From Amphirosellinia nigrospora (Eukaryota > Ascomycota > Sordariomycetes > Xylariales > Xylariaceae), in contig SCHM01000001.1 of NCBI GenBank assembly GCA_004123355.1, positions 13,092,193 through 13,156,192 on the forward strand: a stretch of 64,000 nucleotides of DNA. The letters are read 5' to 3'. Below the pieces are notes generated by a model that did not search any database, was not told where the DNA came from, and was given only the letters and a program-made list of their open reading frames with translations. A program made the translations under genes and the position numbers. Below are positions 6,874 through 63,540 of the stretch, one piece after another (position 1 is the first letter of the stretch; each line of letters begins with the position of its first letter).

Positions 6874-8992
6874 TCAGTCATCTAGGACGTCTTCATCGTC
6901 CGACGTTGTCCGCAGGAGAGCTAAATTTCATTTGTCAGTAACATATCTTTGCCGATCACCCAGCAGTAAATTATCAACCTTACCTTGTCTGACTGTACTC
7001 CGCGCCTCTTCCTCTCCCTTCGTGCCAGCTTTATCAATGCCAAACAACTCTGCCATTTCTTCGAGGGATCGGCCCTTCGTCTCGACTAAATTTGAATATT
7101 AGCTAAATGTGCTTCTTGACGGGCTCCAAGGTCAAAACGTGATAAACTTACCGAGTGCATATCGAACAAAGAAGAATGCAATAAAACAAATGATAATAAA
7201 CAGTATGTATAGGCCGTAACCCGTCGCGCTTTCAATTGGAGGCGAAACTTGAGCTACGATAAAGTTGGAGATCCACAGAGAAGCGGTACACAGAGCGTTT
7301 CCTTTTGCCTAGAGCAGGATAGAAAGAGCCGTCGTTAGCGCGTATACTCTAATTGCAAGACAACGTGAAGAGATCCCATAGAAGACAAATTTAGTGGGAA
7401 GAAGCACAGGTGATGGAGTGAACTTACACGAAGTGGAATAGGAAAAATCTCCGCGGCGTAGGCCCATGAACCAGCGCTCCAGCTCATGTTGAAGAAGGTG
7501 AAAAAGAGGTACGGGAATATCACAATGGCATAATTGGCTTTACTATGCGGATAGTCGGCAGCATGTTGCTGTAAGACGCAGATGCCAGTCAGGGCAACGA
7601 TCATGCCCACAAGTCCAACCTGAAACCAGGTTTTGCGGCCAAATTTATCGAAGTAAAAGACTGGGATCCAAGCGCTGAGGAAAAGGGTTACACCAATGCC
7701 CCCAGTCGCCAGGTTGGCGTACTTCGGGTCCGTGATGCCACCTTTCTTGAAAAGCTGAGGCGCGTAGTAAAATATCCCGTTTGTTCCTGTAGTCTGCTGG
7801 AACATCTGTATCCCGGTTCCAAGAAGAGTAACGCGAAGAACAGGCCCGCGAAACATATCAGCCCATGAAGCATCAGCATGCTCTCTAATATTGGCCTGCC
7901 TTCGACCGACTCGCGAATAGCGCGGATCTCGGCATCTGCAATCACGGACCCGTGCAAGCGAGTCAGGACTTCAAGGGCACAATCGTAGCGCTCCTGGGAG
8001 ACCAACCAACGCGGAGATGGCGGCACCCAACTCCAGCAGCCTATTGCGAGAACGAGCGCGGGAATCACTTGAATTGCGAGCGGCAAGCGCCACCAGTCAT
8101 CGGAATCGAGAAAGAAGAAGGCGTAGTCGACGAAAAAGACGACCATTTCTGCAAAACACAGTATCATCATCAATATGCCGACAATTCGACCACGTAGCCG
8201 AGCTGGCGCGATCTCAGATATATATAATGGAACGCCAGCAGAATAGGCGCCGACGCCAAGGCCAAGGACGAAGCGGCCGAAGCTCTATAGAATCAACATT
8301 AGCCTTCCGTAATACACAACAAGACCGCCCTCCTGAAGGTACTATGTCTTACTCGTAAGGAGAACGGCAAGGAGACATACGATTTGAGCGATGGTGTTTG
8401 ATGCAGCTTGCAATAGCGCGCCGATGATAAAGACTGTACTAGCAAGGGAGATGGTACGCTCTCTGCCACATGCATCGGCGAAGAAACCTATAGTTAGTGC
8501 ACCGAGAACACATCCAATGTTGTAGATACTAATAACGAAGCCAACACTCCCTATAGAGAAGCACGCACCGACGTGCTATGATTAGTGATTTACTCCTAGT
8601 CACCTTGGAAATGTGGTACATTATCTCAGATCCCTTCATCGTTGAAAGCATCCTTGAATGAGGTAACATGGCAAAATGAACGGGTCACAACGACAGATCG
8701 ACATGCAAGGCAACTACTCACAATCGTTAGCTGGCTGCATCAAATTGAGCCAGCGCTCATCGGCGATAATCATGGCCATAACGCCCTGATCCCAGCCAAA
8801 CAAGAAGCCACCCAGTGAGACGAAACTTGTGAGCCCGTACACATAGGCCATATTCGGTGGACGAGACTGATGCGGCAGATCGGCCGGACCGGAAGCGTCC
8901 CCATAATCTTCTCCCGTTGGCACCACGCTATATTCGGATCGGACCGACGGCGGCGGCCGGATTGGTGCCGTCTGCTTGATGAAGTTCTTCAT
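6874..8992 (-). CDS. MFS sugar porter (sugar transporter 1)
   Basis: Plasma-membrane H+-coupled sugar transporter of the sugar porter family. Six exons: 8992..8722, 8550..8381, 8284..7428, 7308..7152, 7085..6984, 6920..6874. The N-terminal cytoplasmic stretch leads to YGLTSFVSLGGFLFGWDQGV in TM1. DACGRER gives the GRR/GRER loop, FGRFVLGLGVG and PLYISEIAPARLRGR follow, then SPRWL at the end of TM6, QQTTGTNGIFYYAP in TM7, and the C-terminal ETKGRSLEEMAELF. Summed exons are 1604 nt; adding the one base evidently missing near 7896 (between ESVEG and EHADASWADMF) gives 1605 nt, or 534 aa, a normal length. The start at 8992 fits the family better than upstream in-frame codons. The substrate (hexose, pentose or inositol) cannot be read. 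Confidence 0.88.
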
Positions 8993-18611: not shown

Positions 18612-19761
18612 TTACTCGTCGATCTCAACAAACTCCGCACACATATCTAAGAACCTCTGACGATATTCGTTGCTTTCGGCGGTGATACTCATTGGGCCTG
18701 TTCGTCAATGAGATTATACCCCCGGACGAGCCCTGTCATTACTTTGGCATGGAACGTATGCTTTGCCCAAAAGAAATCTAGTATAGCAGCCCTGTATATT
18801 TCCTTGCCGTCGCTTGACAGCATCCCAATTCGCCATGTAGGGGAACCTGGAGCGAGAACGGTGGCTGTGCAGGTGTATCGGCTCGGTACCCTCGTTGCCC
18901 GGTTCCAATTGCGGCTGAGACTCAGGGCCCGTCGCGTCAGACGCCGAAATTCTGACAAGAAATAGGGAGTAATCGACGGCATTATTGGCAAGGAATTTTG
19001 TGTCCTTCTCCAATTGTTCTCGGAACTGGGCAGCGTCAGCCTTCGTGAGCTTAACCTTGCCATCAAACTCATCAGCGAGCTTCGACTTGGTGGCCTCGGT
19101 CGCTAATGCACCGCAGCAACGTCTCTCTCGGGTAGAAGAAAGACATAGGTTTGAGATCCCAAGACTCCCATTTTTGCTTCTGACCCTCCTCTGGCGCCTT
19201 ATCCTCGCCGTACAGAATATTCTCCATGACGATATGATGACTAGGCGCGAGGCCCAGCAGCTCGCCAATGCTCTTATGGGTTCGCTCAAGCAGTTCAGTG
19301 ATGCGGACTAGCAAGCTTGCGGGGTTTTGTTGCATGTGCTCGGCATAGGGAAGCAATAGCTCGTTCTTGAAGAAATCATGCTCGAAGCGTCGTGGGACGG
19401 ATTTGACAAGGTAGGCATTATCGCTCGTACAGAAAAAGGTCGATCCACTGTAACCCATATCTCCCATAGTTAACAAGACATCTTTCTTCTTATTCTTCTT
19501 CCTCTTCTTCCTGTTACTATCACCGTCGTCAATGCTCCCAGCACCAAAGCTCGCTCTGTAATCCGCCTCCTTAATGTCCCAAATGCCGCGCAAGGCCCGA
19601 AACAAGTCGGGTCGGAGGAGACGAAATGTCAGCCAGAATAGACGAAAGAACCTCAAGGCTCTGACGAGGGTCGACGGTTTGCGAGCGGGTTTGCCATTGG
19701 GCAGTGAGGTTAAGATGGCGTAGACAACCGAGCGCGCGATGAGGACATCACGGCGCGTCAT
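18612..19761 (-). CDS. Small PIP-kinase-fold protein (PIPK domain only)
   Basis: Lipid/inositol-phosphate kinase-like fold. The chain starts MTRRDVLIARSVVYAIL, has a Lys/Arg-rich insert (RKKRKKNKKK), then GYSGSTFFCTSDNAYLVKSV (glycine-rich loop and ATP-binding Lys), ELLLPYAEHM, HHIVMENILY, the FFYPERDVAA region, VDYSLFLVRI (DYSLL-type catalytic motif), GMLSSDGKEIYRAAILDFFWAKHTFHAK (activation-region block, quoted in part) and an end in EFVEIDE. Reading through needs frame changes near 19131, 19112, 18842 and 18691; three are single lost bases in C or G runs, that near 18842 is one extra or two lost. With these the protein is about 380 aa, much shorter than PI4P 5-kinases such as Mss4 and lacking FYVE or chaperonin domains. 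Kinase activity is therefore uncertain. It is divergent from the gene at 20173, sharing 411 bp of upstream DNA. Confidence 0.75.
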
Positions 19762-20172
19762 AACGAAGACTGAAGCATATTCATACGAATTGTTGAATTT
19801 ATTTGGTTTGCGATGTCTGCACCAGAAGGAACAGACGCGTAGAACGTTGCATAGTTGTTGTTTTGTTGATGGAATGAATCATTTAGAGTTCACTAGAAAA
19901 GGTACTTGACTTAGGTGACATGTGACGTCATGAAGACATGCATTGAGCTGGTATCTCACCTATACGTACCTGGCCCTGGCTAACAGCCCCTGTGCAGACC
20001 CTGTGCTATGTAGACACCCTTTTGGTTTAACTACCCATTTAGGCACCAGGAAATCGTGATATAAATGAATTGCTTGATTTATTGTGTTAAGAGACTTACT
20101 CCTTAGCACCTTACTCGAGACTCGATTGACTCTTAGAAAGAGACATCTGTATCTCTAATCTTGGCTCTTAAG
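19762..20172. promoter_or_regulatory. Shared divergent upstream region
   Basis: 411 bp between the start codons of the PIP-kinase-fold gene (-) and the TPR-like gene (+). No clear TATA box. The arrangement would allow co-regulation, but no specific site is identified. Confidence 0.4.
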
Positions 20173-53763: not shown

Positions 53764-54492
53764 GACAACCTGAAATCCTAGTGTAGTGTAGTGTCTTGAC
53801 CGCCCGCTCATTCTTTGCATCCTCCCCGGCTCCTTCGACAATATTCAGCATTACCTCGATATTGTATCCTCGACAGAAATCGCGCAGCTCGTCTCTGCTG
53901 CGCACCTGTCGCTTGTGCCGTCATTCTTCTCGTTTCACCGGTCCTGTCAGTGTCAGTACGGCGCTAACGAGTCTATCATCGGTACAATTTGGTCCGTTTC
54001 AACTCCTCAAAGATCGCCCTCTAGGTCAAGGTCACGAAGACCGGTACTGGTTATTGTTGGTGGGCCGTAATCCCCCACTCAGGTTGATCCAACTCATACC
54101 CAAGAGCCGAGCGTTCCACCCTTGTCGCCGCACTAAAGCTAGCAATCTCGCTAGCCGGATCCCGTCTTCAAATACTGACGAAAGTCCTCCTGTGCCTGGG
54201 TCTGTGCTGTGCCCTGCGCATCGCCATCCTGTGCCTCTAGTATAGTTCCCGGTTCCTAGTCCCGTGGACGGCGTATTCACAGTCAGTTCGACTCATACTC
54301 GAACATGTCATCGCTTTTTATATACCATCTTTCTCACTTGTAGCGTAACGATCGATTTTGATTTTGCTTTTGCTCCTTGCGAGCCGGCCGTTCTCGATAA
54401 TACGATACGCATCTGGCCGCTTAGCATATACGACGCCACGCTTTTAGGCATGAACTGATGGCATTTCCCGACCGCGAGGGTCGTTTTCGAGT
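53764..54492. other. Promoter region of the fusion gene
   Basis: No gene recognised. Pyrimidine-rich leader sequence near 54240-54480 precedes the start codon at 54493. Confidence 0.4.
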
Positions 54493-57400
54493 ATGAATCC
54501 GAGCATGAATCCGCCAGTGTTGAATAGTTTGTCGGCTAGTGACCATCCGGATCGTGGCCCCGTCGTTTTCGCTGTAACAACGGCAACTCTGGTTTTGGCT
54601 ACCGTATTTGTTGGTGCGAGACTGACCTGCCGAACATTTATTGTTCGTCAGGTTTCCTGGGACGATTATTTCATCATAATCGCCTGGGTCCTCGCTTTTG
54701 GGCTCAGCTTCGCTATCGATTATGGTACTACGAAAGGACTGGGTCGCCATGACGCCGATATCAGCGACGACAACTGGGACGCTCTTAGGCGTTCCGAATA
54801 TACCTTTACCGTTCTTTACGTGCGTCCCGCTCTTATGCCCATACTGTAAACATTTCATCTGATGCCTCACAGAACCCAGCCCTCATGGCTTTCAAAACCT
54901 CAGTACTTATCTTCTACCTTCGATTATCGAAAAATACGCAAAAGGTACTTAGGCTAGGCTCTTGGGCCGTGCTTGTGATTGTGAATCTGGCTGGAACCGT
55001 ATTGACTCTGCTCAACATTTTCCAATGTAATCCCGTGGAATCTGCTTTCAACAACAACCCAGGACGGTGCATTCCGCTCCTGACAGAGTTCATTTGCTCA
55101 GCTCCCGTTAACATAGTCACCGATCTCGCAATACTTGCCCTGCCTCTACCCGTCTTGACGGGCATGAGGCTGCCCCCACGGCAGAAGGTTATCTTGGTCA
55201 TTACCTTTGCTCTAGGTATCTTCGTTACTGTTGTAGATGTGGTTCGCATCTATTATCTTCAGAAAGCCATCAACGATGCTCCTTCAACCTCACCTTCGAC
55301 CGATGTATACGCAGCGTTTGGTGGTTCACCGGAGTTTTCTTGGAATGCGTCGCTGGCGCTTTTGTGGTCGGCTATTGAAGTGAACGTTGGGATCGCCTGC
55401 GCCTGCATTCCGACCCTGAAGCCGTTGATCATTCGCATTCTCCCTGCTATGCTCGTTGATCCGGACGGTAGCGGCCGTCGGGCATCTGATACAACCGATA
55501 AAACACCGACAGTACAATCCTCTTATGGATACGAACCCGCGATAACCAGACCAGACGCTGCTGAGCCGTCCACCACAACCCAAACTCACCAACCCGAAAC
55601 CGATATCGATGCACAAATCTCGGCCATGGAGTTTCTCACTACACCAGATATGCTAAGAGAGGGAGTGACAGATCGGAACTATGTCCCTATGACGAATAAT
55701 ACAGCAACTACAGGTAGTTTAGAGACGTCAGGGGTATATTTTGGCTTTGTCAACATGCGGAAACCGAAAAGCATGATCCGAACATCAGTCAAGGATTCGC
55801 TCAAATACTGCACGATAGTCTCGATCCTCTTCCTATTATGGGGATTTTCATACGGACTGCTCAATACACTGTCAACCGTCGTGGCTCAAATCTCTAACAT
55901 GACCGTTCCAGAGACGTTAGGCCTTACCAGCATTTATTTTGGTGCTGGGTATTTCTTTGGGCCTCTTCTAGTTGGCGAGTGGATTTTGCGACACGACGAG
56001 CATAGAAGGCTCGAGAAAAGACGAAGGAATAGCGGCTATGATGATAGCATAGGCGGCTTCAAAGCGACTTTCAGTAAGTAAACTTCCTCTATATAGCCCT
56101 TTTCCGAACTAGGAAAGCCTTACTTGCGGAAAATGCTGACTCGTTTACAGTGCTTGGATTATGTATCTACGGCGTCGGGACTATCATATTTTGGCCGAGC
56201 GCCGTGCTGACTTCGTTCCCTGGGTTCCTCATTTCTAACTTCGTTGTTGGTTTCGGGCTGGCTGTTCTTGAAAGTAAGTGTTCTAGGGTTGCCCTTTTTT
56301 TCTTCCCTCCTAAGTCCCACCCTTCTTCCCTCCGTATATGTACAATCGACATGCGCTCCGTACGATCTCTATTATATACGATAGTTACTAATTTTTCTTT
56401 TAATAGCTGCGGCGAACCCATTTATTGTGCTTTGTGGTCCCATGGATTATGCGGAAATGAGACTTCTACTGTCACAAGGTGTTCAGGCTGTAGCTACTGT
56501 CTTGAGCAACCTCCTTGCTCAGAAGGTATTTTTCGCCGAACTCAGCACCCACGACTCCATAGGCGCAACGACTCTCATCGATGTACAGTGGACATTCCTG
56601 GCCATCACGCTTCTTTGTGTTGCGCTAGCCCTATTCTTTTATTACATGCCATTACCGGAAGTTACCGATGCAGAGATGGAAAACTCGACACGATATTTGC
56701 CTGTTGATCCAAAGAAACGTAGCTTTTTTGGTTTCCAACTAAGAACCTGGAGCCTAGCGCTGGCAGTCATGGCTCAGTGGTTTTATGTTGCTAGCCAGGA
56801 GACCATGAGCATCTTCTTTCAAAATATTATAACGCCTAGTTTGGACGCACCAGTGACATCGCCGACGAACATGGTACGGGACACTTCGGAGAAGAACGAA
56901 GGCTTAACTTTAAACACCAACGACTACCTTCTCATTGCTCACACTGCCTTCGCTGTATCCCGCTTCCTCGCAGCATACCTTGCGTACTTATCACCAACTC
57001 ATCCCAAAGTACCACAACCTCGAACTATATTGAATCTTTGCACAGGATTTAGTATTATCTCCGGTGTAGTAGTAGCCGCTCTCCGTCCGAAGAATCCAAA
57101 CCTACTAGTGATACCGGTAATCCTGTTTTTCTTTTTTGAAGGGCCCATGTGGCCCTTAATATATACGCTCGGCCTCCGAGGACAGGGCAAACGTACCAAA
57201 CGGGCCGCATTTATTACCATGGGGGCATCAGGACCGGCCTTTTGGCCATTCGTTGGTAAGTTTACAATATCCCTTTTGCTACGCCCATTCCGCACTTTTT
57301 CTCCTTCTTTTGCCAAATGTAGTAATCTATTGTTCTCTTTACGATACATAATGCTAATGGGACATCTCGTAGTGTATGGAATCCATCAGAGTGGTGCCAG

Positions 57401-57755
57401 TTATCAAACCGCCTTTATACTAGTTCCTGCTCTCCTGGTCATATCGGGTATCTTCTCTCTGTTCCTCGACCTTAAGTGCGACGCCAGAGCGCTAGTCGAT
57501 GCTCGCATCGGCCCCGAACAACAGCAAAAGATTCAAGATCGTGCGAACCGTGAGATGGATCTAGACGCGATCATTGCGGCGAGGAGGCGAGCTTCGGTCA
57601 TCGGACTGGACGGGTTCGGTGGCCCCTCGTTCGATTACGAGAAGTTCAACTTGGTTAAGAGACTGTCTGTCGCTTTGACGAAAAAACGTAGAAGCTCTGA
57701 ACAACCTTCGACTGAACATAGGGAATCTAAGAGTAGTAATTCGGAGGGAGGTTGA
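54493..57755 (+). CDS. Fusion: fungal rhodopsin/Pth11-like 7TM domain + FHS-type MFS sugar porter
   Basis: Single predicted protein of 960 aa. Exons 54493-54819, 54873-56073, 56151-56273, 56407-57255, 57373-57755; all introns are GT-AG (53, 77, 133 and 117 nt), phases match and the sum, 2883 nt, is divisible by three with no stop. Residues about 24-303 are a seven-helix fungal rhodopsin/Pth11-type domain: VVFAVTTATLVLATVFVGAR, VSWDDYFIIIAWVLAFGLS, the Cys of NIFQCNP, DLAILALPLPVL, the long helix LVITFALGIFVTVVDVVRIY, WSAIEVNVGIACACIPTLKP. A polar linker (about 304-415) has no start/stop boundary. Residues about 418-870 are a FucP-like porter: YCTIVSILFLLWGFSYGLLN, TAANPFIVLCGPMDYAEMRL, LLSQGVQAVATVLSNLLAQK, GPMWPLIYTLGLRGQGKRTK, FWPFVVYGIHQSGASYQTAF, then a cytoplasmic acidic/Ser tail. 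About 19 membrane helices in all. The role, a sensor fused to a sugar/H+ symporter, is inferred. Alternative: two genes read as one, but the linker lies inside a continuous 1201-nt exon. Confidence 0.85.
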
Positions 57756-58970
57756 GGAGATTGTTCAAGATATAAGAGGATTGAAATTGAAAACCAGGTC
57801 CTGTTATGGATGAGAGAGGTTCGAATCAATCTTGGACCCTGTCCGTGCTCTGAGACTCCGCTCTCACCAGACACTCCGCAATGCACGAAGAGGCCCCCTA
57901 CTTGAATATTCAAAGCGGCAAGCCCAAATATCAACATTTCTGCGGTTAAATGAGCGGGCTCAATAGCAGGCGAATAGCTACCATCGATGATGGAATTCGC
58001 AATCTGGCCGTTTCGGCGACCATATAGACGTTGACCGTCTATTCTATCACGGTTTTTGGAAATCCGTTGCTAGGACATCGCGAGCCATCAAAGAGACAGG
58101 GTTTTGGTGGAAGGGAGGCATATTGTCGAGGTTTCCAGGCGCAATGGTTTAGGGTTCCAGCGGTCCTACTATGCTATTTCCGCTGCCCGGTGGAAATTTT
58201 GGTCTCCGCTTTCTGTGAGAGCGTGTGCCTCTTCTAATGAGGATTTTAATTGGGACGGTTGCATAGCGTATAAGTTTTGATACCCAAGTAGTCGCGACTA
58301 CTCGATTGATGATTCGCCTGCTTTTCTGCGGAATACATATGGGGATTGGAGGAAAATACACGAGGCATTACCTACTTCTCTTCACATACATGAATCCTGG
58401 ATGTGCTTGCATTTTTTATTGACAGTAAATCGATATAAAACTTACACGGGTGCATGTCTTGTAGCATTATGCCATTGTACGGCAAGCAGTAGCAACAATA
58501 CTGATGGCGTACAAATAGGGTTACCTAGATAGTTTCCACATCAGTAAGTACCTAAACCTTGTAATAATGTCTACATTGTAACTTGAACTTCCAATGGCTT
58601 ATCAGATGAGAATGCGGGCGCGGAACGATCGGAAAGTATCCATTCAATTGGATATTAGTGTGGCCAATGACAAAGACCGGAGACTTTCCGGGTGGGCGCC
58701 CTGATATTTAGCGTAACCGTCCCTTCGGCTTACCAATCTACCAGCTCTCATCCCTGCTTAGCCGTGATGATGATGATGTCGGTTACTTCCTCTATTTCTG
58801 TTAATAAACAAACCTATGGAGATCTCACACCAATTCAGTCTTGTATCTTTATTTTAAAATTTAAAGTTTGTCGTTATACTGCGACGGGCGACCTTGAGAT
58901 ATCAAGTTATTATACCTCTTATTATACATAACGGTTAATGGATGTTGCATTTCGATAAGACGAGGCTGCG
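57756..58970. other. Intergenic, no gene seen
   Basis: Spacer between two plus-strand transporter genes. Frames at 58031-58237 and 58692-58931 have no motif. Confidence 0.45.
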
Positions 58971-61290
58971 ATGGCGAGGGAACAGGAACACCACGAGGAC
59001 GCGTCGATGATAAGGGTTAATGTGACGTCTACCACGGCCACGGAAAACTCGCCGCTGCTGCGCTCCGAGCGGAGTAGCCCGGGTCCCCGAGCTCGAGGTC
59101 GTCGGCTACACCCGATGACGAGGCGGATTTGGATGTCGCGAATCAGACGGTTACGAAGAGACGGGGCTGGCGATTATGTTGAGCGTCTATATCCTGATCT
59201 TCTTACAAGGTAATATTCAATTTTTTTTTAATTTTCTTTTTACATGTTGAACAAAACCCTCCGGTCATCTTTATAAGGCTGTGATTTCCTGCTCTGTCCG
59301 GATTATGTCTCGTTCTGGGACGATGATATCAAAGATTACTTGCTAATGTAAAGAAAACGCCAGCCATGAACATGAGCGGCATAACGATGGCGCAATCCAC
59401 CATCGCCGCGGACCTGGACGCGTACGAGAACGCCATGTGGTTCACGACGTCGTTCCTCGTCGCCCTGTCGTCCATGTCGCCGCTGACGGGGAAGCTGGCC
59501 ACCATCTTCTCCCCGCGGAGCATGGTGCTCGTGTCCTCGGCGCTGTTCGCCACCGGGTGTCTCGTCACGTCCCAGGCGCGCTCGTTCGCCGTCTTCATCC
59601 TCGGCCGCGTCATCACGGGCCTGGGCGGCGGCGGGACCATGGTGCTCGCCTTCATCCTCGTGCTCGAGCTCACGACGAAGAGGAACCGGGGGTTGTTTAT
59701 TGGGATTACGTGAGTTGTTGTGGATTTTTTCCTTCTTCTTCTATTAGAAAAGCCGGAGCGAATTGCTTGGTGTTGTGAAATTTTGTAAGCGCTAACCTGA
59801 ACTGCAACCACAGAAACGCCGGTTTCACTACGGGTGTTTCCCTCGGTGCGGTGGTTTTCGGCGGTTTGATTGAAACAGTTGGTTGGGTAAGCAGTTACTC
59901 CTAAACCTGATTCTCCGGCCAGGTCACTCACCCTTCAAACAGAGACCCCTTTTCTGGGCCAGGCGCCGCGAGTCTGCTCGCTGGCTTCGCCATCTTCCTC
60001 AGCATACCCAGCACTCTGAGTTCGCCGAATCAGATGAAAGACAAGGACGTGGCCTTGGGAACTAAGCTTCGACGAATCGATTACCTCGGCGCATTTTCTT
60101 GGTATGTGGATCCTTTCCAGATAGTTACCTCCTTATGCTGTTTCAATCCGGACTTACATGACCGCAGTCTGTACCGTCGTCCTCTTCCTCTTCGGCCTAT
60201 CGGGGACGATCCAGCCCGTCCCCCTCGGATCGTCGCTCGGGTCTCTAGTCATCTTCGTCGTCATCGAGAAATACGTCGCGGCCGACCCTATCGTTCCGCT
60301 TACGGTCCTCCAGAACCGCGGCGCGTTGTTGTCGTGCGTTTCCCAGCTTGGTTTTAGTGAGTCTACTCCGTTTTTAATAATCCAATGGGCGATGGGATAG
60401 AAGTTCATCCCGACTAGATTATAAGTCTCAAAAGCTCTGCATGACACAAGAATCGGATAAAGTTACTAATTCTCGACGTTAAAGTGGCCGCTCGGTGGAC
60501 AGTCTTGTTCTATTCGCCCATGACGGCGCTCGCCGTATTCGGCTTTAACCCAGCTGCCAGCGGGAGTATTCTCATTCCACCAACCTCGGATTTGGTTTGG
60601 GTGGCCTGCTCGTCGGTGTAAGTGTTACCTTATTTTAACCACCGTCGTCCCTCACAACTCATCTACTATACCACGAATACTAAGCAAGCTCAGGCCTTCC
60701 ACATCCGCCGCTCAGGCAGCTTCTGGGGTTCCAGCATAACCTGCTTCATTCTCTTCGGCCTTAGTCTCATGACCCTATCCCTAACATCTACACGTGACAC
60801 CCCTTTCCCACTATACGTCGTCATCGTCTTCCTCAACGGCCTCTTCACGGGAGGTGCCATGAACTACACCCTCGCCCACCTGCTGCACCTCACGCTCCCG
60901 GAGACGCACTACGTCGCCACGAGCCTGCTAGGCACGTTCCGCGGGTTCGCGGGTAGTTTCGGCAGCGCCATCGGCGGCGGCATCTTCGCGCGCACGCTGC
61001 GGGACTCTCTCGAGAAGGGCCTCAAGGCCCTCGACGGCAGCGACCACCTCTCCGAGGACCGCGTGCAGCTGATCCGGAAGCTGATCGGCAGCCCCCTGCT
61101 CGTGTACCACGGCGACCTGACCGAGGCCGAGACGACGGTCGCCGTGCTGGGGTATTCCGCCGCGCTGCGCGTGCTGTTCCAGGCCGCCGTCGTGTTGACT
61201 GCCGTCGTGCTGCTCCTGCAGGCTGCTACCGGGTGGAAGGGGCCCGGGGACAAAGTCGAGGATCGCGAGGAGGGTGGGCGTGATGAGTGA
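58971..61290 (+). CDS. MFS transporter, DHA2 type (drug or vacuolar basic amino acid)
   Basis: Fourteen-helix-type drug:H+ antiporter family, closest in feel to fungal VBA-like proteins. ATG 58971 opens a polar N-terminus (ATENSPLLRSERS), then LDVANQTVTKRRGLAIMLSV with YILIFLQ after two lost bases. Exons: 58971-59209, 59364-59709, 59814-59886, about 59942-60100, 60160-60360, 60485-60620, 60694-61290. Motifs: MNMSGITMAQSTIAADLDAY, AMWFTTSFLVALSSMSPLTG, GKLATIFSPRSMVL (motif A), FILGRVITGLGGGGTMVLAF, NAGFTTGVSLGAVVFGGLIE (motif C-like), FWAQAP, LGTKLRRIDYLGAFS, SPMTALAVFGFNPA, LIPTNLGFGLGGLLVG and a final TM region FQAAVVLTAVVLLLQAATGW. Frame changes near 59115, 59165, 59965, 59977, 60150 and 60578 are one lost base each. 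The 5' half of exon 59364-59709 and the last exon are very GC-rich. Substrate unknown. Confidence 0.83.
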
Positions 61291-62558: not shown

Positions 62559-62750
62559 AGTTACTTGAGGTTGGATGTAATTGCAACTTCGATGATGTCT
62601 AAAAATGAGGCTCAGTAATTGATGGTTCAGATTGGAGTTATAGTCGCAGCTTATCTCAATACCTACTTAAAAGAAGTAGGCAGCGCATCTTACTCTTATA
62701 CTGGCTCCCTGATTTACCAGGTACCTAGGTAACTAGCTCGGCTGCACTGG
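62559..62750. other. Short upstream region of the zinc-finger gene
   Basis: 192 bp between the start codon and the minisatellite. No motif identified. Confidence 0.35.
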
Positions 62751-63095
62751 CTCTCTCCCGCGATTTTGCACTGGCTCTCTTTTGCGATCTTGCACTGGCT
62801 CTCTTTTGCGATCTTGCACTGGCTCTCTTTTGCGATCTTGCACTGGCTCTCTCTCACGATCTTGCGCGATCTTGCACTGGCTCTCTTTTGCGATCTTGCA
62901 CTGGCTCTCTCTCGCGATCTTGCACTGGCTCTCTCTCACGATCTTGCGCGATCTTGCACTGGCTCTCTTTTGCGATCTTGCACTGGCTCTCTTTTGCGAT
63001 CTTGCACTGGCTCTCTCTCACGATCTTGCGCGATCTTGCACTGGCTCTCTTTTGCGATCTTGCACTGGCTCTCTTTCGCGATCTTGCACTAGCTC
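62751..63095. repeat. Minisatellite, 24-nt unit GATCTTGCACTGGCTCTCTTTTGC and variants
   Basis: About 13 head-to-tail copies of a 24-nt unit (consensus GATCTTGCACTGGCTCTCTT followed by TTGC). Unit variants end TTTTGC, TCACGATCTTGCGC or TCTCGC; the variant carrying an extra 10 nt (GATCTTGCGC) recurs at about 62854, 62941 and 63022, so a higher-order unit of about 80-90 nt is also present. Frames through it give repetitive SLLRSCTG or KREPVQDR peptides that are not genes. Confidence 0.9.
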
Positions 63096-63540
63096 TGCAC
63101 GACACAGTGGCAGTGCAAATGCCATGTACCTGCACTGGCTCCCGAATTTGTACCGCCTCATCTGCACTGCTACACCGGCTCATATACTTGCACTGGCTCT
63201 AGAAAAATTATTATCAATTTTCGTGCCAACGCTTCAGGTACGAACCATGATGCGTTCTTACCTCGAAACAGCATGTTTAGGTGCTGGACTTTGTAGCACC
63301 GGCTCAGCTGCGCTGGTTCACTCATCTACCTACTTGATAGGTAGCTGTACTGGCTTCACTGGCTCATCGGCTCATCTAACTGCACTGGCTCAAGAAAAAT
63401 CATCAGTAGGTTTCCTGCCATATTTCATGCCAACGCTCCAGGAATCTGATCTAGGCACCGCTTTAGCTGCAATATTAGAGGTTCTTATCTCGTAGCGTCT
63501 CTGTATGCTAGATTTCATAGCACTGGCTCATCGTTCAACT
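63096..63540. repeat. Diverged long repeats sharing the GCACTGGCTC core
   Basis: Two related segments, about 63185-63315 and 63375-63535, share in order GCACTGGCTC(T/A)AGAAAAAT, TGCCAACGCT(T)CAGG, TTCTTA(C/T)CTCG, and TAGCACCGGCTC / TAGCACTGGCTC. An older, larger duplication into or from which the minisatellite core grew. Confidence 0.6.

Follow-up and report, generated by a model that had tools for sequence, protein, structure and literature searches.

Gene structure at the locus

The analysed window, a 64,000-nt stretch of the Amphirosellinia nigrospora genome, carries on its forward strand a gene whose five exons join into 2883 nt and translate into 960 aa with a single terminal stop. An earlier sequence-only reading had proposed one five-exon gene of this length, and the splice model bears it out; the motifs quoted in that reading are present in the translation. 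All four introns have GT-AG ends, with GTGCGT or GTAAGT donors, and a CTRAY branch-like site was found in each of them. The gene and its main parts are as follows.

54493-57755 (+): whole gene, five exons, 960 aa (splice model, translation)
54493-54819, 54873-56073, 56151-56273, 56407-57255, 57373-57755 (+): exons 1-5 (splice model)
54820-54872 (+): intron 1, 53 nt, inside the 7TM domain (splice model)
56074-56150 (+): intron 2, 77 nt, its initial bases giving the first in-frame stop if exon 2 is left unspliced
56274-56406 (+): intron 3, 133 nt (splice model)
57256-57372 (+): intron 4, 117 nt (splice model)
54616-55433 (+): 7TM Fung_rhodopsin (Pth11-like) domain, aa 42-296 (Pfam PF20684)
55461-55754 (+): linker, aa 306-403, 98 open codons, rich in T/S/P/D, predicted cytosolic
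55755-57752 (+): MFS porter of the FucP (FHS) type, aa 404-960, introns inside (NCBIfam fucP, PDB FucP)

Exon 2 spans 1201 nt and contains the border between the 7TM domain and the porter. As the sequence-only reading had claimed, this border lies within a single exon. The exon is open and free of in-frame stops; the surrounding stop-to-stop frame (54789-56081) runs from upstream of 7TM helix 3 to porter helix 2. The count of about 19 helices given in the same reading is supported by hydropathy with manual splitting, in which the helix borders were set by hand and not by a topology predictor. The sequence thereby supports the proposal that two complete domains are fused in frame. No tandem repeats were found in 54400-57800. 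A structure model of exon 2, built from the single sequence without an alignment, reached a pLDDT of 41.7 and a pTM of 0.27 and was too poor to use.

The N-terminal 7TM domain

The 7TM domain is complete, as Pfam PF20684 (Fung_rhodopsin) matches aa 42-296 with an E value of 1.5e-59 and covers profile positions 1-236 of 237. Receptor surveys ask for seven helices in all, whereas the present chain has about 19 and its 7TM part alone has seven. No Pfam match to CFEM (PF05730) was obtained at E up to 1 in the 960-aa protein. The absence of CFEM is no bar to membership of the Pth11-like class, since the domain is not required for it and, according to excerpts of a fungal survey, occurs in only 4.1% of the class (PMC12842992). 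A search of solved structures (PDB) with the 7TM half returned no relatives at E up to 1. Within the genome, the 7TM half and its paralogues have in common an FQC-x-P ... C pattern, with the two cysteines and their flanking pattern, and also the segment ahead of helix 6; the best local stretches mostly show 23-40% identity.

A Fung_rhodopsin search across the 48.1 Mb of the genome (11 contigs) gave 161 candidates, of which 150 were scored and at least 120 stretches matched; the Pth11-like repertoire would be large even if one gene often contributes several exons to this count. Gene structure and family size together are what would be expected of a filamentous ascomycete. Pth11-like receptors are encoded by dozens of genes per genome and their ligands are mostly unknown, while their coupling to G proteins is not settled in general.

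The porter domain and its relation to FucP

The C-terminal part has twelve helices with cytosolic ends, as judged from hydropathy and charge. Its best family matches are to FHS models of the MFS, and all matches fall below curated cut-offs: NCBIfam fucP matches at 1.2e-28 (100.4 bits, cut-off 280.4), followed by NagP (8.6e-17), gluP (2.2e-15), and PRK10133 (7.5e-15), and Pfam MFS_1 matches aa 427-820 at 7.2e-8 (32.2 bits, 1.2 bits short of the cut-off of 33.4). The PDB search with the porter returned FucP only, in two entries (E. coli FucP, 3o7q, 2e-12). The features in which the porter was compared with FucP are listed below.

55863-55865 (+): codon of Asn440, aligned with FucP Asp46 (alignments)
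56270-56272 (+): codon of Glu550, aligned with FucP Glu135, in the LETAANP motif (alignments)
55986-56063 (+): basic loop between porter helices 2 and 3, aa 481-506 (alignment)
57486-57752 (+): porter C-terminal tail, about 89 aa past the last helix
Contig C4, 1826300-1828070: stand-alone FHS gene with a normal porter start and no 7TM domain ahead

The proton cycle of FucP is attributed to Asp46 and Glu135, of which Asp46 is believed to be essential for active transport, as excerpts of PMC3824880 put it; according to passages of PMC4882079, Asp46 is probably the only H+ site. The fusion retains a Glu at the position of Glu135 (Glu550), where Glu or Gln is found in this family, but has lost the acidic residue at the position of Asp46, which is occupied by Asn440. 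We compared these positions in two sets of prokaryotic proteins. The close set consisted of the 80 best of 390 confirmed FucP relatives, and in these 80 each of D46, E135, N43, Q159, and N162 was present in every protein. The wider set was drawn with the gluP model from 13 genomes and comprised 30 loci, of which 8 were left out for want of a suitable frame or BLAST match; some of the 22 used are identical to FucP or closely resemble it, so that this set is not independent of the close 80. Position 46 in the wider set held Asp in 17, Asn in three, and Gly in two, and position 135 was divided evenly between Glu and Gln (11 each). All 11 proteins with Glu at position 135 have Asp46, and the five without this Asp all belong to the Q135 type. 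The combination of an E135-type site with Asn at position 46, as found in the fusion, was seen neither in the close 80 nor in the wider 22.

Among the other FucP positions, Gln159 is kept in the fusion, Tyr365 is replaced by Trp (also found in one of the 22 wider proteins), and Asn43 is replaced by Gly, a residue shared with the stand-alone fungal copy and with one bacterial protein (L124). Asn162, which is retained in all 80 close and all 22 wider relatives, is replaced by Gln. Unlike the fusion, the one further FHS gene detected in the genome has Asp at the Asp46 position. In the fusion, loop 2-3 has a basic insert found in neither FucP nor the stand-alone copy and exceeds both in length; loop 7-8 is also extended relative to FucP. 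The porter is thus not a standard FHS copy as judged from its sequence: the pairing of Asn440 with Glu550, the Gln at N162, and the basic loop 2-3 are new here. The sequence-only reading was probably right in placing the porter in the FHS branch; the copy is divergent, however, so that the general property of carrying sugars with protons is not to be assumed for it. The long C-terminal tail was considered as a further mark of a sensor and dropped, as the stand-alone copy also has roughly 55 residues there by eye.

A receptor-like chain or an active porter

Our preferred reading, to which we give a probability of roughly 0.4, is that the chain works like a receptor: a small solute would be bound by the FHS fold, and the 7TM part together with the cytosolic linker would transmit the signal. 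A single gene would encode a single 19-helix membrane protein. It would begin with a Pth11-like 7TM domain whose N terminus lies outside, continue through a T/S/P-rich linker of about 100 residues in the cytosol, and end in a 12-helix FucP-type MFS domain that would enter the membrane from the cytosolic side. The porter half would then serve mainly as a ligand-binding module, as a sensor or slow facilitator and not as an ordinary H+ symporter. The 7TM half, with the cytosolic linker or tails, might pass the binding event on to a G-protein or another signaling path, which would make the protein a "transceptor." The sequence-only reading had likewise suggested that a single chain could couple sensing to uptake, which stays an inference. 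We prefer such a sensor-like protein to an ordinary symporter with modest confidence. Support comes from the retention of Asp46 in the E135-type relatives and in the genome's other FHS gene where the fusion has Asn, and the Gln at the otherwise invariant N162 is counted on the same side. Against it stand the three Asn and two Gly at position 46 in the wider set, which indicate that a porter may be active even when it lacks this Asp.

These five proteins also weaken the simpler idea that loss of Asp46 alone makes a dead transporter, and the three Q135-type members with Asn leave room for transport by the fusion porter. An alternative is one fused chain that is an active sugar or small-molecule porter, with the 7TM part as a trafficking, stability, or regulatory module; its transport would not depend on the Asp46 carboxyl, the protein being a facilitator or using another proton site. 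We regard this alternative as unlikely. The evidence for a single chain (the open exon 2, the splice model, and the lack of donor or polyadenylation-like signals) serves it equally well, the porter retains Glu550 as well as the Gln at FucP Q159, some Q135-type FHS proteins manage without Asp at position 46, and Aspergillus niger RhtA is described, in excerpts of PMC5161314, as a characterized fungal FHS protein able to transport sugar. However, every sampled E135-type relative keeps Asp46, the sampled relatives have an invariant Asn where the fusion has Gln at N162, and a basic insert interrupts loop 2-3.

The linker and the question of one chain

The receptor-like reading and the active-porter alternative both presuppose that the two halves are made as one product. 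In random Markov sequence, 98 open codons arose in 1.3% of trials with the composition of the linker itself and in 1.2% with the flanking composition, and across the window, on both strands and with coding DNA included, 1021 of 18,202 stretches of this length were open (5.6%). Codon bias in the linker is weak and does not decide between frames: among the three forward frames the fusion frame ranks first under either training, yet one reverse frame outscores it under one of them. Neither donor-like sites (GTRNGT or the looser GTRNG) nor polyadenylation-like signals (AATAAA, AAATAA, or ATTAAA) occur in 55400-55810. A scan of the linker for promoters and terminators found none, and it is uninformative because its models are bacterial and the host is a fungus. 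Lys and Arg make up 52 of 317 residues in the predicted inside stretches and 10 of 158 in the outside stretches, with helix borders set by hand; this distribution is consistent with a cytosolic location of both the C terminus of the 7TM domain and the N terminus of the MFS domain.

The same stretch also bears on the possibility of two units, in which a separate transcript beginning within exon 2 is an additional or the main source of the porter, or a stop is hidden by an assembly error, and the protein that functions is not the fusion. Three possible internal starts, Met361, Met382, and Met404, lie 17-60 residues ahead of the first porter helix, with a purine at -3 for Met361 and Met404. The stand-alone FHS gene likewise begins about 30-35 residues ahead of its first helix (by eye), and both the divergence of the porter and the weak codon bias of the linker fit such an arrangement. 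On the other hand, exon 2 offers no stop codon for a 7TM-only protein, so that a transcript end with a new start between the halves is unlikely for the 7TM half. With neither an in-frame stop nor a donor or polyadenylation-like signal, the 7TM half could be made alone only if an intron had gone undetected, the message lacked a stop, or the sequence were in error. The rarity of a 98-codon open stretch argues in the same direction, as does the stand-alone FHS gene: on its contig, about 94 kb separate it from the nearest listed Fung_rhodopsin match, indicating that FHS and Fung_rhodopsin genes are not neighbors by default. We consider two units unlikely as well.

The 960-aa protein gave 7 pattern matches in viral contigs and 18 in a collection of genome contigs, none of which was confirmed; both collections hold no fungi, so these results are silent on the conservation of the fusion, which may be private to Amphirosellinia nigrospora.

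The other FHS gene of the genome

The porter query gave at least seven genome matches, which belong only to the fusion itself and to the one stand-alone gene on contig C4, and the fucP model search of the genome gave at least three, with the same two genes alone among those listed. No paralogous fusion was present among the listed matches in this genome. Between the porter and its genome paralogue, identity is 31-47%. The stand-alone gene appears to change frame just before its LETAANP motif, at about 3900-4110 of C4:1823000-1831500 by eye, and may be broken or wrongly sequenced.

A recent lineage-specific fusion of little function, with a decaying porter on a working receptor, is improbable in our view: although the porter scores under the curated cut-offs (MFS_1 and fucP), carries changes at sites invariant in the sampled relatives, and has a genomic sister copy that looks frameshifted by eye, which may mean that FHS function is weakly constrained in this fungus, the five exons are intact through 960 codons, neither the 12 helices nor the LETAANP motif has been lost, and both halves are distant from their genome paralogues, which speaks against recent assembly out of duplicated local genes.

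Comparison with known systems

The sequence-only reading did not know this architecture as a described system. Our searches of an open-licence library likewise listed no fusion of a Pth11-like protein with an MFS domain, which is no proof of its absence from print, and public domain databases may already contain such an architecture; but a hybrid of a GPCR and a transporter, LYCHOS (GPR155), has been described in animals, as excerpts of PMC12716839 report. The Pth11 surveys PMC1088943 and PMC3664084 make no mention of transporter, permease, MFS, or fusion, and the sole mention of "transporter" in PMC4683645 concerns vacuolar amino-acid transport.

LYCHOS is the closest known design. According to the same excerpts (PMC12716839), it combines multi-pass transporter-like and 7TM GPCR-like domains in one chain, as the fusion does, and senses a nutrient, cholesterol, whereas sensing by the fusion is our proposal. 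LYCHOS places the transporter first, as a 10-helix PIN-like domain followed by the 7TM domain, for 17 helices in total; the fusion places the 7TM domain first and uses an MFS fold. In addition, LYCHOS ends in a DEP domain and is described from animals and close relatives, not from fungi (PMC12716839). The set of PIN-like, 7TM, and DEP domains is not what Pfam finds in the 960-aa protein, where the matches are Fung_rhodopsin, MFS_1, and a sub-threshold DUF6693. The resemblance is one of design, not of descent.

With the Pth11-like receptors (fungal GPCR class XIV), the fusion shares the full PF20684 domain, to which it adds a whole porter after the 7TM part, without a CFEM match. According to excerpts of the 1357-species fungal survey, a protein had to have 6-7 helices (7-9 in one class) to be retained, and the BLAST step required more than 75% coverage both ways (PMC12842992); under filters of this description, fusions like the present one would be dropped. 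Among FHS porters (TC 2.A.1.7), E. coli FucP is the nearest solved structure and has the LETAANP motif with E135 in common with the fusion, which differs in the change of Asp46 to Asn and N162 to Gln, the loop 2-3 insert, and the added N-terminal 7TM domain.

The yeast transporter-like sensors and transceptors offer a possible analogy, as in them a transporter fold takes part in sensing in the way proposed for the fusion. To our knowledge, Snf3/Rgt2, Gap1, Pho84, and Sul1 have no fused GPCR-like 7TM domain. Yeast offers established cases in which a transporter fold, MFS or other, serves as a sensor (PMC3824880). The oomycete GPCR-bigrams, like the fusion, join a 7TM domain and an accessory domain in one chain, but their accessory domains are catalytic (PIPK, INPP, TKL, AC, PDE, and AP), unlike the porter; passages of the bigram survey indicate that transporters were discarded and proteins with 5-9 helices kept (PMC5784254).

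A further-reaching version of the receptor-like reading, which we put forward as speculation and consider unlikely, is that a Pth11-like 7TM protein has been fused to an FHS ligand sensor that has given up proton coupling, that it would be an MFS-based counterpart of LYCHOS, the first of its kind, and that it belongs to a hidden set of fusions lost to helix-count filters. If it were true that a Pth11-like receptor carries its own sugar-binding fold, the ligand class would become directly testable. A receptor-transporter fusion would then have arisen in fungi independently of LYCHOS, and inventories that keep only proteins with 6-9 helices would be blind to such fusions.

Other genes in the window

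A second MFS gene lies downstream at 59327-61287 (+), with MFS_1 matches at 59327-59710 (1.7e-14) and, below the cut-off, at 60622-61287 (1.6e-4). Part of a Sugar_tr family transporter is found at 7338-7970 (-, 1.2e-31), and part of a phosphatidylinositol-4-phosphate 5-kinase gene at 19075-19878 (-, PIP5K, 4e-22). The 252-codon open frame at 62737-63492 (+), which has a short repeated unit (CTGSL...) and no Pfam match, is probably a tandem-repeat stretch and not a gene.
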